Translations under genes and position numbers: made by a program | Source of the DNA: Candidatus Rifleibacteriota bacterium | GTDB taxonomy: Bacteria > Muiribacteriota > Ozemobacteria > Ozemobacterales > Ozemobacteraceae | Length of the DNA stretch: 60,451 nucleotides | Direction of reading: 5' to 3' | NCBI GenBank assembly: GCA_017417215.1 | Contig: JAFPZP010000096.1 | Span: forward strand, 1 to 60,451 | In this document: one piece after another, positions 3,088 through 53,978 of the stretch | How the letters are laid out: each line of letters opens with the position of its first letter | How positions within the stretch are numbered: position 1 is the first letter of the stretch | Notes under the pieces: generated by a model | Database searches by the model: none | Seen by the model: the letters and a program-made list of their open reading frames with translations, nothing else | Told to the model about the DNA's origin: nothing

Positions 3088-3088
3088 T

Positions 3089-6000: not shown

Positions 6001-6157
6001 TAATCCGGAAACTTTTTATAATAATATTTTAAAAGCTTATTATGACTATGTCGGTGAAGATGCTGAAGCTGGCGATGATCTTACTTTTGTTATATTGATT
6101 TATAATAAATCAGAAGAGAAAAATAATGAAATAATTGGGGATAACAATATTAGCTAA
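3089..6157 (+). CDS. Membrane SpoIIE/PP2C serine phosphatase with HAMP, subtype B
   Basis: A 1022-residue receptor phosphatase. There is an N-terminal membrane helix (about 16-38), a first extracytoplasmic region, two close helices near 320-385, a second extracytoplasmic region, a helix near 695-715, a HAMP domain and a C-terminal PP2C domain. The metal-binding motifs are all intact: GGDYLDFF, GDVAGHGVGAA, YTDGIVE and DDLTFVIL. It should be an active Mg/Mn-dependent protein serine phosphatase controlled by an external signal through HAMP. The catalytic domain is very close to that of the gene at 27188, while the sensor regions differ much more. The gene starts one base after the subtype-A stop and ends tail to tail with a minus-strand gene (6157/6158). 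Ligand and target are unknown. Confidence 0.9.
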   Translation: MNNNDFKLKYFNNKYIVYILIIFVFVLLPALIMTYSVYRYFQIKEQENLLYLKSDVNRIVSELRNNLVCEKYFCRFLHDYYISESNNNDSNIKKCAEFCKDLRSFYNDGIDYVLIDNDGNVEYNSNPNSYSYSQKEWCDTLIFAKASIKLFFNYYNLEARKYNSGAFDNKGLASTKKILGSRIEFGSFFTLFQENDYHLIRADGSGLTPPCAVYNFKWGGLFLFFSKNLLSDSIHLRNIVKENLSENKYIAGFYNSDNIDVDFWINNELQDCDKVKKLVKEYDSLGSNFIESNSLYYNSQFLTNNKRFFIIAYRNNSLFDICWKSFVFFIIYLLLSIPIIRYFWKTIILGLPGKASIRLKLAFLFLFASGIPLLSLAVISYEYQLRKRLAMIEEAKTWITDNLFEVDQRYLSYLTNVRLELDKYLDGWALSLKKDGLTVDSMKEIDKKLTECNSWDYFCVASEAQVIASFDGLVKYTGSLDQIVFDEKNSYFSKKSNQFRSYLLRLINLILKKICSDLNNKPIPAMILSKIEIFVESIMQKTFPEILYSVVRTKDNISEFGFKNYYNVSYFKFISIFDKKYTDYICLITWLPKDIQRDFLKDKLEKINRNPINYKLVSYERGSRDFLPKKYSNNKVLEKFVRRASEKPTDELEIINIDGEDHIAVSILGHNISEYSFVGLYPIKNVDSIIDYKSCILWVLGVFCLLLSISLAQLLTRSFIDPMNNLQQGAYAIENRNFSHRISNLGNDEFGEVGNIFNNMMVGLKELEVARIVQESMFPKPEFKQGNFRIYGKSITMIDVGGDYLDFFKVDDNSFSVLLGDVAGHGVGAALIMAMAKASILSSGDSLKSPSAMLNQLHKLILATKTKKQRKIMTFQYMHINSETGENLYGNAGACSPLLVRPSQNIVEEVKMSGAALGAFKKASYREMALDFQPGDALVFYTDGIVECKNKKGEMLGYENLKKTVLKCWNYNPETFYNNILKAYYDYVGEDAEAGDDLTFVILIYNKSEEKNNEIIGDNNIS

Positions 6158-24267: not shown

Positions 24268-27186
24268 TTGATAACAAAGATTAAGAATAATTTTAGTTTA
24301 TATTTTCAGAAATTCTTAACGTCTTTTGTTATTATTTTCTGTTTTTTAATCTTTCCTGTTTTTTTAGCTCATACTATATTAGATGCATATTTCATTTCCA
24401 AGCTGGATAATCTTAAAATAGCTAAATTGAGCGAAATGGATAGTAGTATTGATTATCTTAATAAATACTCAAACAATTATAAATATTTCCATTATCTTCT
24501 TTCTACAATATCTGATTATGCTCAAAAAGCTGACAATCCAGAAGAATATTTAAAAATTAATATCAATAACCTTAAAAAGAAGTATCCTAATTCTTTTCAA
24601 TTCTTTGTTTGGGATAAAAATGGAAAACTTGTAAAAGAAATCAGTGATAAAACCCCTTATAGTTATGTATTAAATAAAATATATGAAAGTCTTTATGAAG
24701 TAACAAATGCTGTAATTATTAATCCTAATATTAAGGTATCAAGCCTTAAAACTGTTAAAAAGAATATAAATATTTTACAAAGATTTTTTGGAAGAATTTT
24801 TATTGCTGAAAATCTTAAAAAACCAATTTCTAACGGAAATGATTCTGGACCTTTAATGTCAGATTTGGGTTATGATTTTTCTTTTGTCTGGTTCTCTATA
24901 AAAGAAAAAGCCAGCTTTTTATGTTTCATTTCATCTAAATTGTTGAATGATTTTAATGGGTTAAGAAAAATCTCTGCTAATTTAAGCAAGAATACAGATA
25001 TTATTTATGGATTTTCTACAAGTCCTGATTATGAAAAACCTCTTTCTGTTTTCCCTGCAAAATACGAATCAGAATTGGCTTTGGCTTTAGCTTCATTTGA
25101 AAACGGCGGAGACAGCGTTTTTGAAAATGAAAAATCTATAGTCAAAATGTTTATGCCTCAACCAAATGTAAGAACTTTTTGTTTTATGCCTAAGGCAGAT
25201 GAAATTTGGAATTACAAAGAGTTTAGAAATATTTATGTGGGAATATTCTGTTTTATTTTATTGTTGATTTACTCTTTACTGGGGTTTTGGTTTCTTTATA
25301 AAAAGCATTTCATTTCAATCAGTTGGAAATTAACAGCTTTGTTTCTTATTGCGAATCTAATTCCAATCTCAATTCTGGTTTTTATTACAATAAAATATAT
25401 AGATAATAAAAGAATCTCTTTAAAAAATGAAATAACAGATGACTTAGAAAGAACAATGAGGGATTTTGACCTGCAATACAACTATTCTTTTGAAAGATTT
25501 ACTTCTAAAATTTGTTCCATTGCTGAAAATATTTCTCAAAAAGTTGGTAATGATTCTATAAAAGAAAGAGAAATAAAAAAAATTAATTCTATATATGATG
25601 AGCTGAGTCCATCTGCACTTTTTCTTATTGCAAGCAGCGGTGAAATATTAGTTTCCCAAAAAGGAGATACCACTACTTTTTCTTCTAGTTTTGTATCTAC
25701 TCTTGGTAAAACTTCTTTGGATTATTTAAATAATAGGCCGACACCAAAAGTTGAGCTAGACGAAAAAGATGTTTTTGCTTCTGTTTTTGAAGTAGAAACT
25801 TCTGAATTTTATAAATCTTTCCTAAAAAATATTGGTAAAGTTAGCGTATTCTTTCTAGGTCATCTTAAACAATTGTTTTTCTTTTATACCTTTGGCAGAA
25901 AAGATATTGATAATAATAATTATCTTTTGATGATTATTTGGAACAATGAAGTATTTCAAAAAATATTCTTGAACGAAAACTATAATAATCTTTGTAAACT
26001 TTATTCAGGTGCTAGTTTTTATATAAAAACCAACTTAGATAACACATATTATGGTTCTTTAAATTCAGGAAATAAAGTAAAAGCAATTTTAGAAAAAAAC
26101 TTTGGAAATTCCGATAAACTTACGGGGAATATAGAAATTAATGGTAAAAACAATGTTTTTATTTGTATTAAAGGTAAAAATCTTGAAAATGTAACAATGA
26201 TGGGAGTTTACCCAGAGTATTTAATTAATAAAAGTATTTATACTTATATTTTTCAAGTTGTTTTGGGTGCTCTTATCAGTCTGATGCTTACTATTATAAT
26301 CGGTCAGCTTCTGACTTTGCAGTTTTTAAAACCTATTGACAATATAGGCAAAGCTGCTAATGCAATAAATGTACATAATTTTTCCTATAGGGTTCCTATT
26401 GGTGATAAAGATGAATTTGGTCGATTAAGTCAGGTGTTTAATCGCGTCATAGAAGGCTTAGAAGATTTTGAAGTTGCAAAAATCGTTCAAGAAAGCTTAC
26501 TTCCAGGAAATAATTTTAATGCCGGAGAATTTGATATTTTTGCTAGAACTGTTGTTATGACAACATTAGGTGGCGATTACTACGATTGTTTTAAAATTAA
26601 TGACGATTATCTTGGAATTATAATCGGAGATGTTGCTGGACATGGTATTCCCGCTGGTTTAATGATGGCTATGGCAAAATCTGCTGTTCTTTCAGCTCCT
26701 GAGGAAATAAAAATCGATCCGACAGCTTTAACTGCCAGACTTCATAAAATGTTTTTCTCAATAAAAAATGAACGTTTAAAACGAATGATGACTTTTCAAT
26801 ATTTTGTATTAAATGTTAAAGAAAATCACTTTATTTATACTAATGCCGGACATTGTTTCCCAATAATTTTTGATAATAATATGAAAAAAGCTTCCTTTAG
26901 AGATTATATTGCTACTCCTTTGGGGATTGGTCCTAAATGCCGTTGCAAAAATCAAGACTTTATTTTAGAAAAAGGACAGTCTTTAATTCTTTATACCGAT
27001 GGTATTGTTGAAGCAAATAATGCTGAAAAAGAGCAGTTCGGCTACGATAGATTTCTAGAATGTTTACCCAAAAACTATGATATTAATCCCAAAAACTTTT
27101 ATTATAATTTATATGATAAAGTCTATAAAAATTGGGTTGATTCTATTGATGATGATTTGACTTTAATTATTATAAATAGGGTTTAA
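24268..27186 (+). CDS. Membrane SpoIIE/PP2C serine phosphatase with HAMP, subtype A (intact)
   Basis: A 972-residue paralogue of the gene at 175 with the same layout: an N-terminal membrane helix (about 15-40), an extracytoplasmic region, two helices near 325-380, a second extracytoplasmic region, a helix near 660-690, HAMP, and a PP2C domain. Here the metal sites are intact: GGDYYD (D770), IIGDVAGHGIPAG (D788), YTDGIVE and DDDLTLIII. It is therefore probably active, unlike the 175 copy. The start is a TTG at 24268 with no clear ribosome site; its position matches the paralogue's start. It is separated from the following subtype-B gene by one base, repeating the A-B arrangement at 175-6157. 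It follows thrC closely. Confidence 0.9.
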   Translation: MITKIKNNFSLYFQKFLTSFVIIFCFLIFPVFLAHTILDAYFISKLDNLKIAKLSEMDSSIDYLNKYSNNYKYFHYLLSTISDYAQKADNPEEYLKININNLKKKYPNSFQFFVWDKNGKLVKEISDKTPYSYVLNKIYESLYEVTNAVIINPNIKVSSLKTVKKNINILQRFFGRIFIAENLKKPISNGNDSGPLMSDLGYDFSFVWFSIKEKASFLCFISSKLLNDFNGLRKISANLSKNTDIIYGFSTSPDYEKPLSVFPAKYESELALALASFENGGDSVFENEKSIVKMFMPQPNVRTFCFMPKADEIWNYKEFRNIYVGIFCFILLLIYSLLGFWFLYKKHFISISWKLTALFLIANLIPISILVFITIKYIDNKRISLKNEITDDLERTMRDFDLQYNYSFERFTSKICSIAENISQKVGNDSIKEREIKKINSIYDELSPSALFLIASSGEILVSQKGDTTTFSSSFVSTLGKTSLDYLNNRPTPKVELDEKDVFASVFEVETSEFYKSFLKNIGKVSVFFLGHLKQLFFFYTFGRKDIDNNNYLLMIIWNNEVFQKIFLNENYNNLCKLYSGASFYIKTNLDNTYYGSLNSGNKVKAILEKNFGNSDKLTGNIEINGKNNVFICIKGKNLENVTMMGVYPEYLINKSIYTYIFQVVLGALISLMLTIIIGQLLTLQFLKPIDNIGKAANAINVHNFSYRVPIGDKDEFGRLSQVFNRVIEGLEDFEVAKIVQESLLPGNNFNAGEFDIFARTVVMTTLGGDYYDCFKINDDYLGIIIGDVAGHGIPAGLMMAMAKSAVLSAPEEIKIDPTALTARLHKMFFSIKNERLKRMMTFQYFVLNVKENHFIYTNAGHCFPIIFDNNMKKASFRDYIATPLGIGPKCRCKNQDFILEKGQSLILYTDGIVEANNAEKEQFGYDRFLECLPKNYDINPKNFYYNLYDKVYKNWVDSIDDDLTLIIINRV

Positions 27187-27187
27187 G

Positions 27188-30100
27188 ATGGAAACAGAAG
27201 AAAAAACAATTTATTCTTTAAATAAATATTTCAAATTTTTCCTTGTTGTTTTTTGTTTTGTCTGTGTTCCTGCTTTTATTTTATGTTACTCTGTTTATAG
27301 ATATTTACAGACAAACGAAGAGCAAATAGTAAGCAATTTGAAGACCAATGCTCAGTATATAACTAACGAGTTAAGACGTAATGCCGATACGGAAAAATAT
27401 TTTTGCAGAACTTTTCATGAATATCATGTAAGAGAAATTAATAATCCACTTTTTAATGTTGAAAGCTGTATTGATTATTGCAAGAAAAATAAAGAAGAAT
27501 TCGGAGATAAAATAGATTTTGTTGTTTTAACAAATGATGGCGAAATAAAATATAATTCTAATTCGAAAAGCTTAAATCATGATAAAAAAGTCTGGTATGA
27601 TGCTTTTCACTTTATAAAATATAATTATTCTATAATTCCTGAATTGTTCTGTACTGGTGAAAGAGGTAATGCTGACGCTTTAAAAGAGATATTTGGTCCT
27701 CAAACTATTTATAGAAATTTTAAATCTCTTAATGACGAAAATCTGTATACACTTATTTGGGGTGATTACAAAGGTAATATCCGTCCAGGTGGTGGTTATG
27801 CCTTTAAATGGGGTGGTTTTTTTATTTTTATTTCTAAAGAATTATTAAATGATATTGCTCATTTTAAGCATTATATGTCGAATTCTTTTACTAATACTGA
27901 TATTATCTTAGGTTTATACGATTACAAAAATATAAAAGAAACATTTTGGGTAAATAAACCTCTAACTAATGAGTTTGAAGTTAAGAATATTTTAACAAAA
28001 ATCAGTACGAATAATGCAAAATTAGCTGAAACAGATAATTTATATATTTATCAGCAGATTTTAAATAATAATTATAATTTTTTGATTATTTCTCCAAAAG
28101 GAAATACCAAGCAGAATCTCATACCAAAAATTATGCTTGTCTTTTTTATATATTTTGCTTTTTCTTGGCATATTATTAAATATTTTAGAAATACAATAAT
28201 TTTGAATATACCAGGTGATGCTTCTATTCGATTGAAGATAGCTTTTTTATTTTCTTTTGCATCAATTATTCCATTGATTTTGTTCGCTCTAGTTTCCCAT
28301 GAATATGAATTATATAAAAGACAGGCTTTAATAAAAGAAGCCAGGGTGTGGTCAACAGAAAATCTTTTAAGTGTTGAACAGCGATATCAATCTTATCTTA
28401 AATCTGTAGCTAATATTTTAGATAAATCAGTTACAAATTATAAAAAATACTTGAAAAATAAAATTCCTTCTATTGAGTTAGTTAAGTCAATAACAAGAGA
28501 TTTCTATAATTATGAAATACATGACTTTTTTCTGGTGGCTAGTGAAACTCCTTATATTGCTGCTACAGAAGGTGTATTTAAATACTCTGGTCCTTTAGAT
28601 GCTATTCAATTTGACTTATCTCAAAGTGTTTTAAATGTAGAACAAAAGAAAGTTGAACAAGATAAGCTAATAGAATTTTTGGAAAAATGGAAATATAACG
28701 ATTACAGGTTTTTAATAATTGTTATTAAAAAAATAATCAGCTACATAATAGGAAAAGAAATCCCCGGTTCTGCAATGGATAAATTAGAAATAATTGCTGA
28801 AGGTTTTATGCAAAAACCTATTTCAGAAATAATTTTTAATTTAATAGAAATGGAAAACGAGGGAATAATAAAGAAATGGGGTTATGGAAATAGGATTTTT
28901 ATGGCTTATTTAAATTTTATTTCTATTTATGATAAATCTTTCCCTGATTACATAATGGTAACTTCATGGTGGCCTGAAGATCTTCAAAGAAAGTTTGTTC
29001 TAGATATATTCGCTAAATTAAATAGAAATACTTCCGGATTTAAATTTATTTCTTTCGAAAGATATCAAGGGTTATTCATTCCAGATATTTATAATGGTAA
29101 TGCTGAATTGGAAGCTTTTGCTAAAAGAGCTTCGGAAAAACCTAGTGATGAATTAGAAACCATTTACTATAATGGAGAAAAGTATATTATAGTAACTTTT
29201 TTGGGAAAAGGTCTCGACAAATACAGCTTTATCGGGCTTTATCCCATGCGAAATATTGATAACGAGATAAATCAGCAGAAGTCTTTGCTTTGGCTGCTGG
29301 GAACTTTTAGCCTTATTTTATCTTTTGGTCTGGCTCAATTAATATCTAAAAGCTTTATTAAACCTTTGCTGATATTGCAGGATGGAGCCTTAGCCATAGA
29401 AAACCGTAATTTTAAACATCGCCTTTCCGGCTTGGCAACAGATGAATTCGGTGAAGTTGGCAAAATATTTAACCACGCAATGGTAGGTTTGCAGGAACTC
29501 GAAATAGCAAAGATAGTACAGGAAAGCATGTTCCCTAAACCAGAATTTAAACAGGGAAAATTTGAAATCTTTGGTAAGTCTGTAACCATGATAGATGTTG
29601 GTGGGGACTATTTAGACTTTTTCAAAGTAGACGACAACAGTTTTTCTGTTTTGGTTGGCGATGTTGCGGGGCATGGAGTTGGGGCTGCTGTAATTATGGC
29701 TATGGCAAAAGCAGCCGTTTTGAATGCTGGTGAAAGTCTTCGTTCTCCTTCCGCTGTTTTAAATCAGCTTCATAAAATTATTCTTGCGGCTAAGAGTGCT
29801 AAACAAAAAAAGATTATGACTTTCCAATATCTGCATGTCAATTCAGAAACCGGTGCAAGTCTATATGGAAATGCTGGAGGCTGTTCTCCTTTATTGGTAA
29901 GAAATTCAGAGGCAAGCGTTCAAGAAATAAAAATGGCTGCGCCTGTTTTGGGAGCTTTTAAAAAAGCTGTCTATAAAGAAATTCCTTTGGATATAAAACC
30001 TGGCGATGCGATCATATTCTACACAGACGGTATTGTAGAATGTAAAGATAAAAATGGTGAAATGCTTGGTTACGATAGATTGAAAAAATTGGTTTTGAAT

Positions 30101-30220
30101 TGTTTGGACAAAAACCCTGAAGCTTATTATAATAATATCTATAAGGCTTATATTGATTATGTTGGTAAAGATGCCGATGCTGGCGACGATCTTACCTTTG
30201 TCATTCTGATGTGTTCATAG
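27188..30220 (+). CDS. Membrane SpoIIE/PP2C serine phosphatase with HAMP, subtype B
   Basis: A 1010-residue paralogue of the gene at 3089. It has an N-terminal helix (about 15-38), an extracytoplasmic region with Cys residues, paired helices near 312-380, a second extracytoplasmic region, a helix near 700-720, HAMP (about 725-770) and a PP2C domain. The catalytic motifs GGDYLDFF, GDVAGHGVGAA, YTDGIVE and DDLTFVIL are intact. The PP2C domain matches the 3089 copy far better than the sensor regions do, indicating shared output but different inputs. It is followed by a secreted SecD-P1-like protein 53 bases downstream. The target protein is unknown. Confidence 0.9.
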   Translation: METEEKTIYSLNKYFKFFLVVFCFVCVPAFILCYSVYRYLQTNEEQIVSNLKTNAQYITNELRRNADTEKYFCRTFHEYHVREINNPLFNVESCIDYCKKNKEEFGDKIDFVVLTNDGEIKYNSNSKSLNHDKKVWYDAFHFIKYNYSIIPELFCTGERGNADALKEIFGPQTIYRNFKSLNDENLYTLIWGDYKGNIRPGGGYAFKWGGFFIFISKELLNDIAHFKHYMSNSFTNTDIILGLYDYKNIKETFWVNKPLTNEFEVKNILTKISTNNAKLAETDNLYIYQQILNNNYNFLIISPKGNTKQNLIPKIMLVFFIYFAFSWHIIKYFRNTIILNIPGDASIRLKIAFLFSFASIIPLILFALVSHEYELYKRQALIKEARVWSTENLLSVEQRYQSYLKSVANILDKSVTNYKKYLKNKIPSIELVKSITRDFYNYEIHDFFLVASETPYIAATEGVFKYSGPLDAIQFDLSQSVLNVEQKKVEQDKLIEFLEKWKYNDYRFLIIVIKKIISYIIGKEIPGSAMDKLEIIAEGFMQKPISEIIFNLIEMENEGIIKKWGYGNRIFMAYLNFISIYDKSFPDYIMVTSWWPEDLQRKFVLDIFAKLNRNTSGFKFISFERYQGLFIPDIYNGNAELEAFAKRASEKPSDELETIYYNGEKYIIVTFLGKGLDKYSFIGLYPMRNIDNEINQQKSLLWLLGTFSLILSFGLAQLISKSFIKPLLILQDGALAIENRNFKHRLSGLATDEFGEVGKIFNHAMVGLQELEIAKIVQESMFPKPEFKQGKFEIFGKSVTMIDVGGDYLDFFKVDDNSFSVLVGDVAGHGVGAAVIMAMAKAAVLNAGESLRSPSAVLNQLHKIILAAKSAKQKKIMTFQYLHVNSETGASLYGNAGGCSPLLVRNSEASVQEIKMAAPVLGAFKKAVYKEIPLDIKPGDAIIFYTDGIVECKDKNGEMLGYDRLKKLVLNCLDKNPEAYYNNIYKAYIDYVGKDADAGDDLTFVILMCS

Positions 30221-30273: not shown

Positions 30274-31221
30274 ATGAAAAGCTATAATTATATAAGTATC
30301 ATTGTTGCACTGATTTTGTTTATTTTTCTGTCCGAATATAATCTTATGGCAGAAAATTCTGAAGAACCAAATTTTGAAGACTCATTAACCGAAGATTATT
30401 TAGTCGAACCTTTAAAAGGTATCTTTCAAACTCCGTCAAAAATACAGTTTCATCTTGTTAAAAATCATTCCAATGATTCTAAAGAGTTAAGTTATGCATC
30501 AGATGATGAAAAGGTTATTAAAAAGTATGCTAGACCTAATGACCCTGATTTTTATTATTTAGTTAAAAAGAAACCTGATTTAGATGGTAAAGATATAATA
30601 GAAGTTAAGAGTTCTTTTGAAGAATATGGTAGGCCTGTAATCAAGCTATATTTTAATGATGATGGTAAGCGTGCTCTCTTTGAACTTACTAAGAATAATA
30701 TAGGAAGCCAATTGGCGATAGTAATAGATGATATTGCTTTCTCTGCACCATCTATTTATGCTCCTGTAAATGATGGTATTATAATTATTAATTATAATAT
30801 TGGTAGTTTTACTTTTCCTAGAACAATGACTATCAACTATTTAATTAGCAATAAGCAAAAAATGAGTTTTCATATTGTAGAAAAAGAGGCTGATTCTGTT
30901 GAAGGTATAGGAGAGATATCTAACAATGAGATGATTCTTAGAAATCCTATAGACAGTAAAAAAGCTGTCTTTTACAAGTTAAAAAAAGCAAATGCTGTTA
31001 GTGGCGGCGATATTTTAGATTCTAACTGCCTTTTTGGTTCTAAAGATTATCTGGTTATTATGATTGAGTTTAATGATAAGGGTAAATCGGAACTATTAAA
31101 ATTGTTAAAAGAAAATATCGGCAAAAAGCTTGCTTTGGTAGCTGATAATATAGTTTATAGCTCTCCTAAAATAACTTCTGATAAAATACAGGGTTTTGTT
31201 CACTTTAGAATAGAAAAGTAG
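30274..31221 (+). CDS. Secreted protein made of two SecD P1-head-like repeats
   Basis: A 315-residue protein. A signal peptide or anchor (about 1-25) is followed by two tandem modules (about 46-185 and 190-315). Each has the pattern of the SecD periplasmic P1 head: an opening strand (IQFHLV; MSFHIV), YYLVKK/FYKLKK, a segment ending IKLYFNDDGK/IMIEFNDKGK, then LAIVIDDIAFSAPSI/LALVADNIVYSSPKI. No SecD membrane helices are present, so it is not a translocase subunit. A GGAGGAG ribosome site precedes the ATG. It sits behind the A-B phosphatase pair and might be a periplasmic partner, which is only positional inference. Confidence 0.72.
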   Translation: MKSYNYISIIVALILFIFLSEYNLMAENSEEPNFEDSLTEDYLVEPLKGIFQTPSKIQFHLVKNHSNDSKELSYASDDEKVIKKYARPNDPDFYYLVKKKPDLDGKDIIEVKSSFEEYGRPVIKLYFNDDGKRALFELTKNNIGSQLAIVIDDIAFSAPSIYAPVNDGIIIINYNIGSFTFPRTMTINYLISNKQKMSFHIVEKEADSVEGIGEISNNEMILRNPIDSKKAVFYKLKKANAVSGGDILDSNCLFGSKDYLVIMIEFNDKGKSELLKLLKENIGKKLALVADNIVYSSPKITSDKIQGFVHFRIEK

Positions 31222-35241: not shown

Positions 35242-35279
35242 AAAAAAATACCCTCAGTGAAAACTGAGGGTATTTTTTT
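35242..35279 (+). terminator. Intrinsic terminator after nifJ
   Basis: A perfect 17-bp stem (35242-35258 with 35263-35279, core TACCCTCAGT / ACTGAGGGTA) has a GAAA tetraloop and ends in seven Ts. Confidence 0.95.
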
Positions 35280-35421
35280 GCTCTATTAGTAATCAATCCT
35301 CTATCTCTATGTATCTTTACGTTTCTCCTCTAGACTAATAAAAATCTTTCTAATATAATTAGGAGTGTACTGATTTTATTTTGATGTTGTTGAGAAGAGC
35401 TATTTGTTGAAGGTAAGGGAA

Positions 35422-38400
35422 ATGATTAGTAGTATTCTTGGTTCTTTTTTTCAGAAACTTTTTGCTAATTCTAAAAAACATGGTTTTACTCTAGCTGAAG
35501 CTCTGATTATTACTGTTATGACAGGGGCTTGTCTGTTGCCTATTTTAGGCACAATGCAGAATGCTCAAGTCAGAACCGAAAACTATGACCATTATTCAAA
35601 AATGCAAATGTATGCCCGTTCACGCCTTAATGCAGAAATTGCTAATGCTGCTTTCGACCATAAGTCTATAAATACAGAAAATGAATATCACTATATTGTT
35701 TATTTTGCTTCTAGTACATCTAATGAACCTGCTGAGGTAGATGATGCCAAATTAATTGAACTTCCTAAAACATATGTAACCTTAAATGAATTAGCTTCTT
35801 TAACAGTAGAAGCCGAACGTGAAAATTGGGCTACAGCAGCTATTAATCTATTAGGAATAAGCAGAGACAAAGGAACACCTTACCTCGATGTTGTTCATGC
35901 ATATAAGACTTCTGTAGAAAGCAAAAATAGCCCGAGTTTAGCCGAATTTGGAAATGATTCCAATATAATCGATTCCCCAAAGGCGCTTTTGGGCATTGTT
36001 GTAAAAACTTGTTTGCTTAAAAGTAACGGTCAAGATTATTGGGAAGATGATGGTTCCTTAAAAATAGAAACAGATGATGGAAATGGAAATAAAACTTACG
36101 CTAAAGATCCTGAAGTTCAGGTTTTACCGGTAACTTTATTCAGTTTTGTTAATCTTCCAACAGTCAGCGATGAAATGATTTGGCTTGCTGATGCTTTAAA
36201 TTGTGTAATTTACGGTATAGACCCACTATCTAGAGGGGTAACAACAATAACTCTTCTTCGTTCAAGTGATAAGTCTGATGCGCCTGAACATAACAAGAAC
36301 GACCCTTATCGTCCATGGCATATTGCGATTCACCCCTCTTTAAAAATAATGGCAGTAATGATGCAAGAAAAGGTTGTGCTGATTAATATTGACAAAAAAA
36401 GCCCATATTTTAGTGATATAAAAGATACAACAATAATCAAAACAGATTTGAATAATAAAAATATCTGTAATATAGACAAAGAGTTTAATCGCGCTTACGA
36501 AGATGGTGGATTATGTTTTAGACCGGATGGCAAAGTATTATTTTTAACGCAAACAGTAGACAAAGGTAGTAGTAAAATATATGCTTTTGAATTTAAATAT
36601 AATATTAACCCTGAGACCATGGTCTTAAATTGGGAAAATGGAACGAATAATACCCCCTATTTTACTAATTTTTCATTCACAAGTCCTGTATCTTGCAGTT
36701 TATTAGATGATAAAATTGTAGGTTTAAAACCTTCAAACGATGGTTATTTATATTTAGCCTACAAAGAAATAGATCCAAAAGAAAATAATTTCGGAAAAAT
36801 ATTCAGATACCCTATGTATCAATCAGATTGGTCAAAATGGGAAGGTGAAGAATTCGTATCTTGTGGTAGTAAAAAAATATCATCTATTGATGTCAGCCCT
36901 GATGGAAAAAGACTTGCTGTAATAACAGAACAAGAAGGTTTATTAATTGAATATGATACAAAAACAAAAGCTGAACTTTATGACCCTTTAACTATAAAAA
37001 ATGCTGATAATAAAATTCCAAATCCTTTTAAAAATGCGTATGTATCAGTAGCTGATAATCAAACAAATTTGTATGAATCAAAGAGCCTTAATGTTGCCGT
37101 TTCTAGTAGAACTGAAATAAATAAAGCACTTGTTGGTAATTTTGAGTCTAATACCTCAGATCCTTTCAGAAAAGCAAAGGTGGAAGGTGGTACAGAAGGT
37201 GGCTTTGTAGTTGTTAGTCCTGATAGCAAATATATTATTGCCAATGATAAAAAAAAGCCAAGACTTTATTTTTGGAATTCAGAAACGATTTCTTCTACAG
37301 ACTTATTAACTATAGCAAATAATGGAATTAATGAATTTATACTAGAGAATAATTCTTCTGGTCCTAAGTCAGAAAAAGGTTTTTCAGATCTTGCCACCAA
37401 TAAAAGAGATACACTGGCAGCCACTTTTGAGGATAACAAGATAAAACTCTTTGATTTAAATACTTTTAAGGAATTGGAAGACGAAAGTTTTTCTGTAACA
37501 AATTCCGTATCTGGTTTAGCGATGAATAGTCTGGGTAATATTTTGTTAAGTAGTCATGGGGATAATACAACCGGAAGTTATATGTTCAATAACACAGATC
37601 TTTCATCAAAATATGCTGATAATAATTTTCAAAAAAATACGAAAAAAAACGTTTTTGATGATAGTTTCCCCAATATGGCTTTTGCTTTGCAATATAATAT
37701 ATCTGGAGCAGCTAACAGTGTTGGAATTTATAATTTTTATAACGAAGATTATAATAAATGGGAAACTTCTTCAACAGATTCTTATGACCGCAGAAATTAT
37801 TTAATTAATTCTGATTGGCAAGGTCTAGATATAATAGGTATGCCCAACGGTGGGGCCATGGTGCTTTATGGCAAAACTGACGGTTCGTCAATGATTGAAT
37901 GGGTAGGTCGTAGAAATTGGGGAACTACTAATGTTGGCAAATATAAGCTTTTCGCCAGATGGACAAATATTTATAAACCTTCTGTTGCAGACTCATATTT
38001 GCCTAATAATAGTTCTTTATCGGTTTATACTCGAACTGAAGGTGACAATGGTCACATTAGCAGACTAGAATCTCCATTAGAACCAAATACAGTAGTTAAT
38101 TCTTTTGATTTCAAAGCTGCTGATGGATTAAATTTTAATGATACCTCAACTAGATTTATTACTCCAATTGTATTAAAGAAAGTAACTAGTGGAAAATTCA
38201 AAGTAGTTAATTATGCAACAAATGAAATTTCTTCAACAAAAGGCCAAGATCATCCAAATGTACCAATAACTTGGAAATACCCATTTAACATTAATCAGCC
38301 AAACACTTATTATCTTGGTTGGTGGAATGGTCATTTAACTGGAAATAACCAAGGTGTTGTTGGGTATGAAATCGAAGATGATTCAAATGGTAATTTTTTA

Positions 38401-41400
38401 TCTGATGTAGGGGGATGGTTTTCTCCAAATAATACAATATTGGATTTGATTTCTTTAGAAATAGATGATAATTCTACCCATAAAAGAAACTATAGTATCA
38501 AATTTAAAATATCTCCTGTTCAACCAAATGAGACTAATTTTCCACCATTAGGTTCTAAAAAACTTGCCATAAATCCAGAATGCTCAATTTTATCAATATT
38601 GGCAACAGATACCTCTGATGCTCCTGTAGTTAATCTTTATGATTTTAATAATCAAATATATGGTCCAGAGACACAGATAGAAGGCATGTTAGTTGATTAT
38701 AGAACTCGCTTAGATAGTGGAGAAGGACCTTCTTCTCAAAACCCTGATTCCAAAACACCATGGCCAGAAGAAACTTCAAGTAAATCAATTTTTACAAAAG
38801 TTGCGACTAAATGTCATTTCGGAGATAGTATAAATACTTTTGGTGGTGCAACTACTAAGAATGATTCTTGGACATCTTTTAATGAACATCCTGCAAATTA
38901 TTATTTCAGTAATGGTGATGGTCCTAGCAATAGCGGTGATATAAACACGTATAAATCTATTGCTAATAAAAGATTTTTGGGGTATTTCAGACCTGAATAT
39001 AAAACAGTAAATTTTCAATCGGCTGCAACTGAAGATGTAAGATATTTTTACAATGATAGTTATATTTATGGTAGAAATCCGAAAAATGTAAGTGGTCTTA
39101 CTTTTATTCCTAATTCTATAGTTCCTTCAATAAACTGTTATGCGTATGATTCTGGAAAATTACAAATAGATCAAGGCTCTGATGCAGGAGGAATGTTCTT
39201 AGGCAGTTTTATTAGTGATGAAACTGCAACAGTAATCTTATCTGATGTAACCAATCATATTTCAAAAAAAGGTTCTTCTGCTATAACAAATTATTATGAA
39301 CCGACTTTAGATGGCTGGAATTTTTTAAAGAGTGAACAAACTTATATTCTAAAAAACCATCCAATTTTTATGAGCTCTTATAAGATACAATCATCTACTG
39401 CTGGTTCAGAACTTGCTTTAGATCAAGGTAATATGCTTTTCTCTAGGGATAAAGCAAAACCAGTTTTGTATATCAAAGATACAAACCGTTTATGGGCATT
39501 ATATAATAATAAAGTTATCAGAGTAGATGTCGGAGCTGACCTATTATTTGATTTTGCCCTATCAACCGATGGTCAAAAGCTTATATATACTAATACAGCA
39601 TCTAGTAAAAATTATATTTCTGCTTTTAATGTTTCTTCTCCCAATGATACTTTATTTACTGGTTCTGCCGATGAATTATCTCTAAGTTCAGATACCAATA
39701 CATATTTAGGTAGAATAGCAAGTATTTCGTTAGATTTGAATTCGAAATATTTGGCGACCAAACCTTTTGTGTCATATAAATCAACAAAAGTTGGTGGAAA
39801 GTATAGACTTCTAAATGATTTAAGTACTTTTACTGTTGCTGCCAATGGTGCTGTTGCTGCTGGTGGTGGAATATATCTCTTAAGGGCTGACCAGGACAAG
39901 ATTGCATTGTTTAAGCCATTAGATAATAGTTTTTCTGTTTATGGAAAATCTATAAAAAAGATGTATTCATCTGTAGTTACCGCTTATGATGATACTCTTT
40001 ATATTTTTGGTAGTGCAGGAAATGGATCAGACGATTCTGTTGGTGGAAGAGTTCAAAGTTACAATGTTAATACAAAGAAAGCATTAACTTCATTGAATGA
40101 AGCTGAAGCTGACACTGGTACATATTCGAATGCATATCAGGTTAATATGGGAATTAAAGGAGACTGTTCTAATTTTAATGGTTCTATTAGTGATTATATT
40201 AGTGGAAATTGTGTTAATGATGCACAGAATATCTTTGTTTATGACCCGGCAAAATATGTTAAAACCAATAATGAAGGTCCATATATAGATATTAAATTTA
40301 ATTCTCCGCTTACTGTTAATAAGATATTAATATCTAACTATAACCCTTCTTCAAATGGTAACGATAAGAATATTAGGAGATATAAGCTAGAAGGGAAAAA
40401 TACCGATCCTTATAGTTCCATTTTAACAATAAATGATATGGTTAATCATGAGATTAACATAGAAACATCTAGATATACTCAGAATATTGGTGAACAGTGT
40501 TTTAAAACATATAGGTTATATCTAACTCATGTAAAGGGGCAATACAAATCAATTTTAGGTGCTATTGCTGGCGCTATAACTGGAGAAGATGCTTGGCATG
40601 AATGTAGTAAATATTATAATGGTACCCCTAGTGATTATAAGTATGATGGTATTGTTAATACTGTTATGTTTTTTAGAGAAGGTGTTAAACGTCTTACACC
40701 TGAAGTTGGGGATTCGAACATGTCAACATATTTTTCAAGTTTTAATACAAAAACAGATGATTTTAATTGGAAAACAACAAATATAAAAAATAGTGACAGT
40801 CGAGACCAATGTGATTTAAAAGATGTTTATATACCAGGTAAGTCTGAAAGTAATAAAATAGAATATAATGTTTTTACGGAAAAATCACAAGGTTGGGATA
40901 CTGTCAAACCAAATCCTTGTATAGTTGTAACTTTAACTAATCGAGAAGCTGTTTGTGCTGTTAGGTATGCAAATTCAAATAAATCAAATTCTAATGAAGA
41001 TAGAAAAACCTTAAAAATGTTCAAATTATTTGGTACAAATGTTGATGGTTCATATTATCCAAGCAATTTTGATGGTGATGATAGTGATCCTGATTCTAAT
41101 ATTTGGAAACCAATAATATTTACTAATAATTCTGATTTTTTCATCGGTCCTGATGTTAATGATACCTTTATTACTGCTGAAGTTAAAGCTCCTCAAAAAT
41201 ATAAGTATTATTTGTTCAAAGTTTACGATAAATACGGTTCATCTGGTGATATGCGAATGATTGGTTTTGAAATGTTTTCAAGCCGTGAAAAAGATGAATT
41301 ACCTACTCAAGATTACCTAACTCCAATGAAAAATGATGATTTAGGTCAAATAAAAGTTAGTAGTGGAGCTGTTTGTGCAACACCTTATGGATTAGTTTAT

Positions 41401-41982
41401 ACAGGTGGATTTAATAAATTAAATATTGCTACGCAAACTTCTTTGCTATATTGGCCTCATGCAATAAATAAATATGATGGATATTATAATCAATTTGGTA
41501 TTTCACGTTCATTGCCAGAGATGAAGTGTCCTAGAGCAAACCATGCGTTAGTATGGCATAAAGGCAAAATATATGCTCTAGGAGGACGTTCTGGTTTGAA
41601 CGATGATGATGTCTATAATAATGCAAGTTTTACTGAAGTTTTAGATTATAACAACAAAATGGAATGGGAACTCTATTCTAAAAATTATATATATGTTGAT
41701 GGGGCTGATGATTCTTATATTGCTAAACGATACAATCACGGTGCTTGCAGTTTTGGTGATGAAATATTTATGTTTGGTGGTTTAGAGGAGTCAGACTATA
41801 TACGCAGTTCTGCAATAGCTTTTAATCCTGAAACAGGTGTTGTAAGAAGGTTGTCTGGTTTGGGTGATGTCTTGGCTTCTAATGAAAAATTAGATCCCTG
41901 TGTTGCTGTGCCATTTGGTTCAAAAATATATATATTCGGTATGGGTAACGGCAATTTGAAAATACTTGAATACACCCCATAA
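35422..41982 (+). CDS. Giant prepilin-like protein with propeller, discoidin-like and kelch-like regions
   Basis: A 2186-residue protein. Residues 20-44 form a type IV prepilin N-terminus: the cleavage site G21|F22, Glu at mature position 5 (FTLAE), then a hydrophobic helix. The body is beta-rich. WD40/YVTN-like blades occur early (SPDGKRLAVI, SPDSKYIIAND, LAATFEDNKIKLFDL). Two stretches near 1610-1870 resemble discoidin (F5/8 C) modules. Kelch-like repeats close the protein (HALVWHKGKIYALGG, HGACSFGDEIFMFGG, VPFGSKIYIFG). Ordinary pilins have 100-200 residues. The ATG at 35422 follows AAGG; a TTG six codons earlier is possible. It may be a surface or pseudopilus-tip protein processed by PilD, but no pilus gene is nearby. 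Confidence 0.82.
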   Translation: MISSILGSFFQKLFANSKKHGFTLAEALIITVMTGACLLPILGTMQNAQVRTENYDHYSKMQMYARSRLNAEIANAAFDHKSINTENEYHYIVYFASSTSNEPAEVDDAKLIELPKTYVTLNELASLTVEAERENWATAAINLLGISRDKGTPYLDVVHAYKTSVESKNSPSLAEFGNDSNIIDSPKALLGIVVKTCLLKSNGQDYWEDDGSLKIETDDGNGNKTYAKDPEVQVLPVTLFSFVNLPTVSDEMIWLADALNCVIYGIDPLSRGVTTITLLRSSDKSDAPEHNKNDPYRPWHIAIHPSLKIMAVMMQEKVVLINIDKKSPYFSDIKDTTIIKTDLNNKNICNIDKEFNRAYEDGGLCFRPDGKVLFLTQTVDKGSSKIYAFEFKYNINPETMVLNWENGTNNTPYFTNFSFTSPVSCSLLDDKIVGLKPSNDGYLYLAYKEIDPKENNFGKIFRYPMYQSDWSKWEGEEFVSCGSKKISSIDVSPDGKRLAVITEQEGLLIEYDTKTKAELYDPLTIKNADNKIPNPFKNAYVSVADNQTNLYESKSLNVAVSSRTEINKALVGNFESNTSDPFRKAKVEGGTEGGFVVVSPDSKYIIANDKKKPRLYFWNSETISSTDLLTIANNGINEFILENNSSGPKSEKGFSDLATNKRDTLAATFEDNKIKLFDLNTFKELEDESFSVTNSVSGLAMNSLGNILLSSHGDNTTGSYMFNNTDLSSKYADNNFQKNTKKNVFDDSFPNMAFALQYNISGAANSVGIYNFYNEDYNKWETSSTDSYDRRNYLINSDWQGLDIIGMPNGGAMVLYGKTDGSSMIEWVGRRNWGTTNVGKYKLFARWTNIYKPSVADSYLPNNSSLSVYTRTEGDNGHISRLESPLEPNTVVNSFDFKAADGLNFNDTSTRFITPIVLKKVTSGKFKVVNYATNEISSTKGQDHPNVPITWKYPFNINQPNTYYLGWWNGHLTGNNQGVVGYEIEDDSNGNFLSDVGGWFSPNNTILDLISLEIDDNSTHKRNYSIKFKISPVQPNETNFPPLGSKKLAINPECSILSILATDTSDAPVVNLYDFNNQIYGPETQIEGMLVDYRTRLDSGEGPSSQNPDSKTPWPEETSSKSIFTKVATKCHFGDSINTFGGATTKNDSWTSFNEHPANYYFSNGDGPSNSGDINTYKSIANKRFLGYFRPEYKTVNFQSAATEDVRYFYNDSYIYGRNPKNVSGLTFIPNSIVPSINCYAYDSGKLQIDQGSDAGGMFLGSFISDETATVILSDVTNHISKKGSSAITNYYEPTLDGWNFLKSEQTYILKNHPIFMSSYKIQSSTAGSELALDQGNMLFSRDKAKPVLYIKDTNRLWALYNNKVIRVDVGADLLFDFALSTDGQKLIYTNTASSKNYISAFNVSSPNDTLFTGSADELSLSSDTNTYLGRIASISLDLNSKYLATKPFVSYKSTKVGGKYRLLNDLSTFTVAANGAVAAGGGIYLLRADQDKIALFKPLDNSFSVYGKSIKKMYSSVVTAYDDTLYIFGSAGNGSDDSVGGRVQSYNVNTKKALTSLNEAEADTGTYSNAYQVNMGIKGDCSNFNGSISDYISGNCVNDAQNIFVYDPAKYVKTNNEGPYIDIKFNSPLTVNKILISNYNPSSNGNDKNIRRYKLEGKNTDPYSSILTINDMVNHEINIETSRYTQNIGEQCFKTYRLYLTHVKGQYKSILGAIAGAITGEDAWHECSKYYNGTPSDYKYDGIVNTVMFFREGVKRLTPEVGDSNMSTYFSSFNTKTDDFNWKTTNIKNSDSRDQCDLKDVYIPGKSESNKIEYNVFTEKSQGWDTVKPNPCIVVTLTNREAVCAVRYANSNKSNSNEDRKTLKMFKLFGTNVDGSYYPSNFDGDDSDPDSNIWKPIIFTNNSDFFIGPDVNDTFITAEVKAPQKYKYYLFKVYDKYGSSGDMRMIGFEMFSSREKDELPTQDYLTPMKNDDLGQIKVSSGAVCATPYGLVYTGGFNKLNIATQTSLLYWPHAINKYDGYYNQFGISRSLPEMKCPRANHALVWHKGKIYALGGRSGLNDDDVYNNASFTEVLDYNNKMEWELYSKNYIYVDGADDSYIAKRYNHGACSFGDEIFMFGGLEESDYIRSSAIAFNPETGVVRRLSGLGDVLASNEKLDPCVAVPFGSKIYIFGMGNGNLKILEYTP

Positions 41983-46861: not shown

Positions 46862-47983
46862 ATGCTTCCTTTTGATGCAAAAATATATTGTGGGCATAAA
46901 ATGCTTGAAATTAAGGATGTCCGAGAGGACACCCGTATTGTTGCTTCTTCTGGATGGGGTGAAACTAACGATACCAATGTTAAAGACGTTTTTGTAAACA
47001 ACGTAACTGATACCCCTTTATTGCAACTGACAACAAGTAAGGGAGCAGTTTTAAGATGCACTCCCGACCAGCTCTGCTTTGGAAGATTTAATCCTTCTTT
47101 AAGAATGTATTCTCTTTATTTGCACGAACGTTCCTCTTTAGGTTTCAGAATAGGTCTTACATCAGATATCATTCATGAAGCTATAGGCATGATGACTGCA
47201 AACTCTAAATCAGATGGAAAGCGTTCTGTTACAGATAGAATCTGGGTTATAGAAAACAATCCTAACTTAACAGCTTCAACTTTCATGCACAAACTGGTAA
47301 TGGCAAAATATGGTTTGCCAGATATTCCCTTTAGTTCTAAACATAAAGAATCTATGCTCAATGATGAGCTCATTAAAAAGCTTTTTGACAGTATTGATAC
47401 CCCTGTTGGCGGAAAAGAGCTTCTTAGAGATTCCAATATGTTTATTGAGCACCCTCATTTGACTTTAAAACTATCTGACAGCGATAATCCCAACAGCAAT
47501 TCTGTTCAATTCGTCATTTTCGGTGGCAAAGAAAAGGGTGCAAGTGGTCATTATCCACATTTAATACAGATTCAGGGAATAACCGATCCTAATAGTGCTG
47601 AGCAATTCAAAATGGCAAGACGTCAAAAGTCTAATCATGGCTTGTGGTATCTAGAAGTTACAAGAGAAGACTTAGAAGAAGCTGAACTCTTTGTAAAAAC
47701 TGTTTCCAATCTTGATGATCTGGAAATTATCAAGAAAATTCAGTTGACTAAAAAAGCTGCTTTTTATGTTTTGCCCGCTTCTCACTTAAAGCGCGGAATG
47801 CTCGTTCCTATATTAAATTCACGTGGAATAATCGAAGAGGATGTTGTTAATAAAATTGAAATATATGATTACAACGGTCCTTTGTATGATCTTCAGGTAA
47901 ACGAACTTTATAATTTTATTACAGGCCAATGGGTTGTGATGTGCTATACTCCATCAACACATCCTAAGCCATCTTTTATTTAG
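46862..47983 (+). CDS. Stand-alone intein/Hint-like protein next to pcrA
   Basis: A 373-residue protein. The start MLPFDAKIYCG resembles intein block A with Met in place of the catalytic Cys. TPLLQLTTSKGAVLRCTPDQLCF (about 50-72) resembles block B, with Thr-Pro-Asp where Thr-x-x-His is usual. Near the C-terminus, VNKIEIYDYNGPLYDL then VNELYNFITGQWVV resembles block F, but the final His-Asn is absent (VVMCYTPS). The middle (about 100-300) would be a linker or nuclease-like insertion. It is a complete gene ending 11 bases before pcrA, with no helicase residues attached. It is probably an intein-derived protein that cannot splice. I recall similar sequences as inteins inside UvrD/PcrA helicases, not checked here. 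Confidence 0.6.
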   Translation: MLPFDAKIYCGHKMLEIKDVREDTRIVASSGWGETNDTNVKDVFVNNVTDTPLLQLTTSKGAVLRCTPDQLCFGRFNPSLRMYSLYLHERSSLGFRIGLTSDIIHEAIGMMTANSKSDGKRSVTDRIWVIENNPNLTASTFMHKLVMAKYGLPDIPFSSKHKESMLNDELIKKLFDSIDTPVGGKELLRDSNMFIEHPHLTLKLSDSDNPNSNSVQFVIFGGKEKGASGHYPHLIQIQGITDPNSAEQFKMARRQKSNHGLWYLEVTREDLEEAELFVKTVSNLDDLEIIKKIQLTKKAAFYVLPASHLKRGMLVPILNSRGIIEEDVVNKIEIYDYNGPLYDLQVNELYNFITGQWVVMCYTPSTHPKPSFI

Positions 47984-50915: not shown

Positions 50916-53900
50916 ATGGTCAAAAAAATATTTTTGGAAGAAGTTTGTGATAGAGAACGTTTAAAAGGCTTTATCAGCCGAATGTTCAAACTTAGCAGAC
51001 TTCATATCACTCCATTTAATGAACGTGGTGACGTGGTTATTGGTGATATCGAAAAGATTCTACCAGGTCTTACAGATGCAACAGAAATTGTTGATTATCC
51101 GACCTCTGAATTGTTAGAAAGACCAGATGGCTCTTTCTTGAGAGTCATGAAACTAAGTCATAAAGGAACTTCTTTTGGGGCAGTGTTAATAGGACCTTTC
51201 TTCAAAATAGGTTCTGAACATGAAGTTAATGCTGAAATACCAGAAATTACTGATGAACAGCTTCAGGGAACTGAGGAATCCGTTCAGTCTTTCTTTGACC
51301 AGATGGCTGACTTAGCAGCTGAAAAGACTACTCTTGCACGAAAAGAAAAAATACTCTCTGTTCTTGAACATGCTTCTAATGTAATGAATTCAAGTCTTGA
51401 ATTTCAAAACCTTCTTGAATTTGTTATCGATATAGCTATTGAAATCACTGGTGGTTCCAGTGGTTCTTTGCTATTGAGAAAAGATGAGAGTGACTATCTT
51501 GAAGTTGTTGCAGCTAGAGGTAAATATCCTCATGAAGTTAAAAAACTCAGATTTGAGTTCGGTCAGGGGATTTCAGGCTGGGTTGCTGAACACAAAGAGC
51601 CTTTGAATGTACCTAATGTTCTTTTAGACAGCAGATATATCGAATCTCCTGAAACCGTCTATTCTGAAATGGCTATGCCATTGCTGATTGGCGATAATTT
51701 AGTAGGGGTTATCGTAGTTGATTCAGGTGAAGTAAGTGCTTTTTCTAGTAGCGATGAGCTTTCTTTAAATACCTTGGCTTCTATGGTATCAAGAGTTCTT
51801 GAAAATTCAAGACTACTAGCAGATTCTAATCAAAAGCTTCGAGAACTTACAAAGGTATTCAGTATTTCTGAAAAACTTTCTGTTCGCAGCTTAGATAGAG
51901 ATGGTTATAACCAAATGCTTAGAGAAGCTTGTGAAGCTACTGATAGTAATGCTGCTTCTCTTCTGTTGTTTAACAGTGACTTAGAAGAATTGTCTATGTG
52001 CGCTTCTTATGGATTGCCAGAAGAGTTAGACAACCTTACTATAGGCATGGGAAAAGGCTATCATGGTTGGGTTGCTGCCAACAAGAAGACCTTGCTAATT
52101 GCTGATGCTCTCCATGATGGCACTATAGTTCATGTAAATTTCCTCGATCAGTTTGCAAAATCTATGCTGATTGTTCCGTTGATTACTGCTGATGATCGCT
52201 TTGTTGGAACTCTTGCCATATATCATTGCGATTCTCCGAAAGTAATTACTGAATCAGACCAGGATTTGCTCAATACTATTGGTCGAATTATTACTTCTCA
52301 CTTCGAAAACGAAAGATTGTTCAATGATTCCAGAAGAAAACTAGATTATTTGTCTACTTTATACAAAGTCGGTTCTTCTGTATCTAGAACTTTGAACATA
52401 TCTAAGCTTTTTGATACCATTCTTCAGCAGGTTCAGGAAGTAATGGACGTTGAAAACTGCTCCTTGATGGCTTATAACCCCACAAAGAAAGTTTTGACTC
52501 TTGATGCGGCCATAGGTTTGCCAAGCAATATGGTCGGAAGAATTGAAGTTAAGTCTGGCGAAGGCATTGCTGGTTGGGTTGCTCAGAACAAAAAGCCTGT
52601 TCTTTTAAAAGATATCTCTAAAGATGATCGTTTCTCCAACCATCAAGGGCGCTTGGATTATAAGACTCGTTCTGTTCTTTCCGTTCCTATTCTTCTTCAT
52701 GATAATAAACTATTAGGCGTTTTGAATGTTAATAACAAGCGAAACGGTGACGCTTTTCTGGAAGATGACCTCAATCTTTTGCTGGGTATCTCTGGTCAGA
52801 TATCTCAAGCAATTGCCAATGCTAGTCTTCACGAAAAAACAGATATGCAGGTTGCAGAACTCAGCCTTATTCAAGAACTTGGAAAGGCAATAAATTCTTC
52901 ATTAGACCTCGATTCTGTTTTGAATTATTTCATTGATATGACAACAAGAATCACAGAAGCAGACTGTGCAAGTCTAATGCTTTACGATGATTCTACCAAT
53001 GAACTTTATGTAGAAGTTCATCGTGGGTTTGATAACGATTCTATCAATGATTTCAGACTGAAACTTGGCGAAGGTATTGCCGGTAAAGCTGCCGCAACTC
53101 ATAAACCAATAAGACTTGATGATACTGGAACAAGCAAGGAGTATCAGGATTTCGGTCAGCTTTCTGCTAGAAATCTTACTCTAATGTCTGCTCCGCTAGT
53201 TAACAAAGATAATCTTATTGGGGTTATTAACTGCGAAAGAAAGAAAGATAAAAAAGGTCCATTTACTGCTGATAATCTTGACCTTCTTGAAACTCTTGCA
53301 TCTCAGGCTTCTATTGCTATAGAAAATGCCAGACTTTATCATAACCTTCTAAACGTATATCTCGAAACAATCCGTTCATTAGCTGCTGCTATAGATGCTA
53401 AAGACAGCTATACTCACGGTCATTCTAGACGTGTTACAGACCTTAGTGTTGGTATTGCCTTAGAAATGAATCTGCCTAAGTCTGAAGTCGACACTATCAG
53501 ACATGCTTCATTACTTCACGATGTCGGTAAAATCGGTATTTCCGAAAAAATACTTCTTAAACCTGGCCGCTTGACTGATGATGAATTTGAAACAATCAAA
53601 TCACATCCATACATTGGCGCTGGAATTTTGAATTCTATTGAATTCTTGCATTCTGTCTGTGAAATAATTAAGCACCATCATGAACGCTACGATGGCAAAG
53701 GATATCCAGACAAACTGGCTGGCGAAGAAATCCCGTTGGGTGCAAGAATTATCTGTGTTGCAGACTCATTCGATGCAATCACTTCCTGCCGACCTTACAG
53801 AAAGCCTTTAACTTTCGATGAAGCTACAGAAGAAGTTAAACGCTGTTCAGGAACTCAGTTTGACCCTGAAGTTGCGGCTGCTTTCGTAAGACTCAGAACT

Positions 53901-53978
53901 TCAAAACATTGTCCGCCATGGTTCAGAGGAGATTTGCTAGACCAGAGCCTGGCAGACCAGTATCCACTTCAACTCTAA
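50916..53978 (+). CDS. Four-GAF HD-GYP phosphodiesterase
   Basis: A 1020-residue cytoplasmic signalling protein. A unique N-terminal region (about 1-140) precedes four GAF domains (about 145-300, 308-470, 478-640 and 648-800), three of which show G(Q/E/K)G(I/Y)xGWVA-type turns. The C-terminal HD-GYP domain (about 815-1000) has HGHSRRV, LLHDVGKIGI, HHERYDGKGYPD and ADSFDAITS, the full set of metal and GYP residues. HD-GYP enzymes hydrolyse cyclic di-GMP (or cGAMP). GAF domains may bind cyclic nucleotides or sense redox state. No membrane helix is visible. A strong terminator follows 13 bases after the stop. Confidence 0.93.
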   Translation: MVKKIFLEEVCDRERLKGFISRMFKLSRLHITPFNERGDVVIGDIEKILPGLTDATEIVDYPTSELLERPDGSFLRVMKLSHKGTSFGAVLIGPFFKIGSEHEVNAEIPEITDEQLQGTEESVQSFFDQMADLAAEKTTLARKEKILSVLEHASNVMNSSLEFQNLLEFVIDIAIEITGGSSGSLLLRKDESDYLEVVAARGKYPHEVKKLRFEFGQGISGWVAEHKEPLNVPNVLLDSRYIESPETVYSEMAMPLLIGDNLVGVIVVDSGEVSAFSSSDELSLNTLASMVSRVLENSRLLADSNQKLRELTKVFSISEKLSVRSLDRDGYNQMLREACEATDSNAASLLLFNSDLEELSMCASYGLPEELDNLTIGMGKGYHGWVAANKKTLLIADALHDGTIVHVNFLDQFAKSMLIVPLITADDRFVGTLAIYHCDSPKVITESDQDLLNTIGRIITSHFENERLFNDSRRKLDYLSTLYKVGSSVSRTLNISKLFDTILQQVQEVMDVENCSLMAYNPTKKVLTLDAAIGLPSNMVGRIEVKSGEGIAGWVAQNKKPVLLKDISKDDRFSNHQGRLDYKTRSVLSVPILLHDNKLLGVLNVNNKRNGDAFLEDDLNLLLGISGQISQAIANASLHEKTDMQVAELSLIQELGKAINSSLDLDSVLNYFIDMTTRITEADCASLMLYDDSTNELYVEVHRGFDNDSINDFRLKLGEGIAGKAAATHKPIRLDDTGTSKEYQDFGQLSARNLTLMSAPLVNKDNLIGVINCERKKDKKGPFTADNLDLLETLASQASIAIENARLYHNLLNVYLETIRSLAAAIDAKDSYTHGHSRRVTDLSVGIALEMNLPKSEVDTIRHASLLHDVGKIGISEKILLKPGRLTDDEFETIKSHPYIGAGILNSIEFLHSVCEIIKHHHERYDGKGYPDKLAGEEIPLGARIICVADSFDAITSCRPYRKPLTFDEATEEVKRCSGTQFDPEVAAAFVRLRTSKHCPPWFRGDLLDQSLADQYPLQL

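Follow-up and report, generated by a model that had tools for sequence, protein, structure and literature searches.

A 2186-residue prepilin-like protein of Candidatus Riflebacteria as a probable I-type minor pilin with a modular head

The giant gene and its prepilin leader

We analyzed a stretch of 60,451 nucleotides (here called the window; positions 1 to 60,451 of the forward strand of contig JAFPZP010000096.1, assembly GCA_017417215.1) from a Candidatus Rifleibacteriota bacterium, whose rumen-type genome assembly of 2.57 Mb is 69% complete and was placed with Candidatus Riflebacteria. On the forward strand, as are all features described for this locus, lies a gene that forms an uninterrupted open reading frame from an ATG at 35422 through 41979, with its stop codon at 41980-41982, and whose product of 2186 residues, referred to here as the giant, is probably a minor pilin of the I type that carries a very large head. 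A preliminary description of the window had proposed a 2186-residue protein with a type IV prepilin leader, and the uninterrupted reading frame, the conservation of the leader, and the selection visible at codon positions all bear this out.

The predicted leader peptide comprises residues 1 to 21 (35422-35484) and reads MISSILGSFFQKLFANSKKHG, with cleavage expected after G21, between G and FTLAE, so that the mature chain would begin with FTLAEALIITVMTGACLLPILGTMQ and carry a glutamate at mature position +5 (Glu5). A hydrophobic N-terminal helix follows (35485-35580), supported by the alignment and by a long helix at residues 24 to 53 of a low-confidence model; it includes Glu5 and carries an I-type signature (CLLPILGTMQ). 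This helix opens a pilin module of residues 22 to 236 (35485-36129), which is delimited by the alignment and appears as a helix and strands in the same poor model. The giant therefore has the class III signal of modular type IV pilins, with G before F at the cleavage site, Glu at +5, and then a hydrophobic helix.

Because the Pfam N_methyl model scored this leader at 16.1 bits, which is under the cut-off of 21.2 and weak taken alone, we tested the leader by its conservation. The same leader heads the giants found across one family of Candidatus Riflebacteria and is present in every complete relative there. Across 14 homologues that keep the leader, L24, E26, and P40 are invariant, and F22 and T23 almost invariant. 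When the 70 residues that start at the cleavage site were compared with those of six homologues of the genus, the codon changes fell mainly in third positions, and comparison with the closest of these gave 6, 3, and 25 changes at codon positions 1, 2, and 3, respectively. This third-position bias indicates that the leader region is translated and under purifying selection. On these sequence comparisons, we regard the leader as real, and a true start downstream of it, which the preliminary description had raised as a possible refutation, is ruled out by this conservation and selection. An in-frame TTG lies 5' of the ATG, at 35404. Upstream of both, at 35250-35271, the sequence as read directly contains a hairpin (ACCCTCAGT-gaaa-ACTGAGGGT) followed by a run of T, a likely terminator of the preceding pyruvate:ferredoxin oxidoreductase gene; the giant gene is thus probably its own transcription unit.

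Association with H, J, and K minor pilins

The observation that no pilus assembly gene lies near the giant is true of the window for the genes named, but it is misleading, because the gene has moved out of its pilin cluster in this genus and in relatives sits beside minor-pilin genes. In genomes such as G011, G014, G019, G021, and G022 (G numbers denote genomes of our comparison set), three small genes flank the giant gene on its 3' or 5' side and encode H-, J-, and K-type pilins, the H-type subunit being GspH-like and the K-type subunit lacking Glu5. Linkage to at least one of these genes was found in 12 genomes from six genera (G004, G005, G006, G009, G011, G014, G015, G017, G019, G020, G021, and G022), with the giant of G004 and G005 only partial, at a contig end. 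No small I-type pilin gene was seen in the clusters of these 12 genomes, in which the giant is encoded together with H, J, and/or K as an I-type minor pilin would be. In several relatives, the giant operons are also surrounded by repeated small genes with a YSYADYLxWDDDxRYEIIDGE motif, Uma2/DUF820-like in appearance (loci L056, L057, L058, and L065).

The distribution of the giant follows that of the K subunit. The K subunit of the trio is encoded in 19 of the 22 genomes of the family and in none of 15 genomes from other families of the phylum. Eighteen of the 19 K-bearing genomes contain the giant, counting the truncated copy in G004, with the exception being the fragmented genome G010, and none of the 22 family genomes has a giant without K. 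Named homologues identified in a contig scan (four loci) belong to Candidatus Rifleibacterium amylolyticum CH46, a Candidatus Riflebacteria bacterium, and the uncultured bacterium RUG334, the RUG records being rumen genomes.

In the window genome, the H-J-K trio stands alone on contig C75 (5855-7720), with the giant on contig C63. The operon adjoining the C75 trio encodes proteins 53 to 81% identical to those of the operon beside the giant and H-J-K genes of G011. The genus mate G002 likewise has a vacated H-J-K site and carries the giant elsewhere, with one copy directly 3' of a pyruvate:ferredoxin oxidoreductase gene as in the window. Giants of the window genus form a single clade with support of 100/99 in our tree, in which one row (G002e_C310) was ignored due to a very long branch that probably reflects a wrong-strand translation. 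Judged from gene content and order, C75 is the ancestral H-J-K site from which the giant moved to C63. Extra giant copies are found in G002 and G003, and a single departure from the operon in the window genus, with these copies arising afterwards, explains the pattern most simply. Linkage to H, J, and K genes is likewise missing in genus g6 (G008 and G016) and in G013. Separately, an extra copy in the genus mate RUG334 (L109:10001-16563) lies in two frames near residue 158, through a frameshift or an assembly error.

These data bear on a suggestion of the preliminary description that the giant uses the prepilin pathway for membrane anchoring alone. The leader might merely position or anchor a large periplasmic or surface protein outside any filament, and the orphan gene behind a terminator in the window genus and the extra copies in its mates would suit such a role. 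The linkage to H, J, or K genes in 12 genomes, the near-perfect co-occurrence with K, and the retention of Glu5, a residue used in filament assembly (PMC10191384), argue in the other direction, and we consider anchoring alone improbable.

To assign a subunit type, we built one profile for each type (H, I, J, K) from pilin cassettes of the window genome and from the trio, and these profiles classified 57 of 57 sequences correctly in leave-one-out trials. The first 90 residues of all 17 giants were best matched by the I profile; the window giant, nearest to the I-type pilins of its own genome, scored 24.1 bits against I, compared to 10.1 against K, 9.6 against J, and 1.5 against H. Retention of Glu5 in the giant, a residue missing from the K subunit of the trio as from K-type (GspK/PilX) subunits, indicates that the giant is not the K subunit. 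Those small I-like paralogues of the window genome that were compared gave sub-threshold matches or none to the NCBIfam GspI and PilV models, which suggests that these models hardly reach the Riflebacteria phylum.

Head domains and pilus machinery

Behind the pilin module, the giant carries a series of beta-rich domains. The first propeller region, with WD40-like blades, spans residues 237 to 849 (36130-37968) and was recognized by weak Pfam beta-propeller and WD40 matches and by repeated xSPDGK-type motifs. It is followed by an optional insert of residues 850 to 1037 (37969-38532), which, according to our table of insert lengths, is present in the window genus, G022, G019, G008, and G013 and missing from six other relatives. 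A second beta-rich region, residues 1040 to 1470 (38539-39831), is kept across the family in both the alignment and the insert table. The C-terminal part is a kelch propeller whose first blades (residues 1475 to 1551; 39844-40074), found by Pfam and the alignment, are separated from the remaining ones (residues 1980 to 2186; 41359-41979) by a slot of residues 1552 to 1979 (40075-41358). The later blades match Pfam kelch models at down to 3e-12 and extend to a C-terminal proline (EYTP) that is conserved in the alignment.

The slot of the window giant, as in its genus, holds two F5/8C (discoidin)-like domains. The Pfam scan of the window protein itself did not call F5/8C, and the assignment comes from comparison of a slot profile with the F5/8C pair that Pfam recognizes in relatives (98.4% probability; control, 0.2%). 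In other relatives, the same slot contains LamG domains (G009), NHL repeats (G017), or just 27 residues (G006). The giant thus has non-pilin domains grafted behind its pilin module, as modular type IV pilins do, with kelch evident from Pfam and F5/8C from profile comparison. The beta-propeller, discoidin-like, and kelch-like modules of the preliminary description are accordingly all recovered, the kelch strongly, the WD40-like blades weakly, and the discoidin pair through its relatives. A sequence search of the PDB with a single giant protein returned nothing significant, and a search with the family profile returned kelch propellers only, among the matches listed. AlphaFold2 models of the giant as two halves, made from four-row alignments, had mean predicted local distance difference test values of 39 and 33.5 and were not used for fold searches.

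The window genome encodes machinery on which such a subunit could depend. We found two prepilin peptidase genes (Peptidase_A24), 14 T2SSF matches representing PilC-like platform proteins, 20 T2SSE matches, five of them strongly PilB/GspE-like, and five secretins, so that the pilD, pilB, and pilC functions sought elsewhere in the genome are present and a lack of pilus machinery is ruled out. Prepilin leader matches numbered 67, with 55 above the cut-off. Other large proteins with the same leader were also sought; the open frames that hold the remaining 66 matches do not exceed 464 residues, which rules out that large leader-bearing proteins are common in this genome. K-type subunits without Glu5 reach 883 residues. 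At least seven further minor-pilin cassettes (L097, L103, L102, L098, L094, L096, and L101) encode a large K-type subunit of 699 to 883 residues, with no match for the five such proteins scanned against NCBIfam or the four scanned against Pfam, and we regard these subunits as a second population of modular pilins. Next to an I-K-J cassette on C13, a protein of 1420 residues that seems to carry a Sec signal peptide (L092:8561-12823) had no Pfam or NCBIfam match and is possibly a separate tip protein. The PilY1 family (PF05567), to which the C-terminal propeller of PilY1/PilC tip adhesins belongs, was detected neither in the window genome nor in the giants.

Several of these components would also suit a type II-like secretion pseudopilus, with the giant as its tip pseudopilin and the propeller/discoidin head as a cargo receptor or plug instead of a surface adhesin. 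Tip complexes of H, I, J, and K are common to type IV pili and type II secretion systems (T2SS) (PMC10191384), the genome holds several sets of the PilB/GspE, PilC/GspF, and secretin types, and the H subunit of the trio finds its best NCBIfam match in GspH (1.6e-10, below the cut-off). Neither the H nor the K subunit of the trio reaches the GspH or GspK equivalog cut-off, however, GspI is small in known T2SS, and exchangeable F5/8C, LamG, or NHL modules on a head of about 240 kDa suit surface binding better than an internal piston. We therefore view the secretion alternative as unlikely, if somewhat less so than anchoring alone; both explain the swapped modules together with the H-J-K linkage less well than an I-type tip subunit does.

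Other genes of the window are of separate interest. Two tandem pairs of similar membrane proteins of about 1,000 residues lie at 175-6157 and 24268-30220, and the one scanned (24268-27186) contains HAMP and SpoIIE phosphatase domains. The interval 30274-31221 encodes a 315-residue protein that matches the SecDF P1 head without the rest of SecD. A free-standing gene for 373 residues at 46862-47983 has an intein-splicing (Hint-like) match (5e-6) and a homologue in G002 (L071:13178-14002), and four GAF domains with HD_5 at 50916-53978 indicate a likely cyclic-dinucleotide phosphodiesterase.

The giant as a candidate tip subunit

In type IV pili, the minor pilins H, I, J, and K form a tip on which the filament is built and which is capped by the separate adhesin PilY1 (PMC10191384, PMC7541494). 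We propose, with a probability of roughly 0.7, that the giant is a modular I-type minor pilin, in the position of GspI, PilV, or PilI, within an H-I-J-K tip complex and that it replaces a separate PilY1-type tip adhesin. What the sequences show in its favor is a conserved and selected leader, linkage to and co-occurrence with H, J, and K, an I-type profile match, the domain make-up, and the exchange of slot content. The suggestion of a protein capping or decorating a pilus or pseudopilus is thereby strengthened and made specific. According to the proposal, the leader would insert the giant into the inner membrane, the prepilin peptidase would remove 21 residues, and the N-terminal helix would assemble with the C75-encoded H, J, and K subunits, initiating a filament and capping it, served by one of the ATPase and platform pairs. 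The head of about 1,950 residues, which equals or exceeds PilY1 in size and consists of two propeller-like beta regions followed by a kelch propeller that bears the discoidin pair in one loop, would then be displayed at the filament tip and could mediate adhesion, so that one chain would do the work of PilV and a separate PilY1. The discoidin slot, exchanged between species, is the likely ligand-binding part.

Several points weigh against this proposal. The I-type signal is confined to the first 40 or so residues, and no profile gave a subunit-type signal beyond the helix, with none left from residue 22 on. The H, I, J, and K labels used for training were our own, drawn from gene order and sequence, and neither NCBIfam GspI (TIGR01707) nor PilV (TIGR02523) matched the pilin module of the window giant; due to both, the I assignment leans on the place of the giant beside H, J, and K genes together with the profile score. 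Absence of PilY1 is weak evidence in a genome that is 69% complete, with PF05567 detected in only one of 14 control genomes. Both structure predictions were poor, leaving the propeller and pilin folds without structural confirmation. Finally, the giant is unlinked to pilin genes in the window genus, some members of which have gained further copies, and its role there could have changed.

A third alternative places the giant as a minor pilin that decorates the filament body instead of its tip. Certain minor pilins do occur along the length of pili (PMC10191384), and a flexible linker could permit such a position (PMC8179133). The head would far exceed the filament spacing unless a long linker were present, and the giant is associated with H, J, and K subunits of the tip type, of which K lacks Glu5, making a decorating role very improbable.

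An I-type tip subunit of this form would be a variant of the known modular pilins within the known H-I-J-K scheme. In modular pilins, a minor pilin has a binding domain grafted to it (PMC8179133). Those of Streptococcus sanguinis, PilB and PilC (PMC8179133, PMC9934059), share with the giant a class III signal, Glu5, a small pilin module, and a large C-terminal binding module, and the binding modules covered there include lectin types. Unlike them, the giant has 2186 residues, several propeller-like regions, and a nested exchangeable slot. The protein that the 2021 survey names as its most extreme multi-domain case has 860 residues with 12 copies of one motif, and the text consulted makes no mention of kelch modules (PMC8179133).

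With the FimU/PilV/PilW/PilX and PilY1 system of Myxococcus and Pseudomonas (PMC7541494), the giant shares an H-I-J-K set and a large propeller-bearing tip protein, and both the trio K and Myxococcus PilX lack Glu5 (PMC7541494); it differs in bearing the large head within the I subunit itself. The four-subunit logic is also that of GspH-GspI-GspJ-GspK, although there the extra domain is in GspK (PMC8179133), and here the I subunit is enlarged. KilLMN of the Myxococcus Kil (Tad) pilus (PMC12075869) likewise forms interchangeable minor-pilin tip complexes with a large pilin that exposes variable domains, but its subunits are three Tad-class pilins with unrelated head domains. Verru_Chthon cassette proteins (TIGR02596, TIGR02599) resemble the trio as prepilin-like gene cassettes, with H and J matching the D and C models, respectively, below the curated cut-offs. 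Our searches of one literature collection found no paper on Verru_Chthon or on Riflebacteria pili of this kind.

These findings would extend modular pilins to a subunit more than 10 times the size of an ordinary pilin and suggest a way of building the tip other than with PilY1, one whose adhesin is covalently joined to the minor pilins. More tentatively, filaments throughout this Riflebacteria family may have a PilV-type subunit and a PilY1-type adhesin fused into one polypeptide that reaches about 2,500 residues, module swaps in one loop of the terminal kelch propeller setting its specificity, and in one genus the fused subunit may have left its operon and multiplied, giving one H-J-K set a repertoire of different tips. 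What these tips bind could be approached directly through the one slot of the otherwise conserved head whose content changes (F5/8C, LamG, NHL, or nothing), and one family-specific H-J-K set alongside several giants in one genus suggests that the tips are interchangeable.

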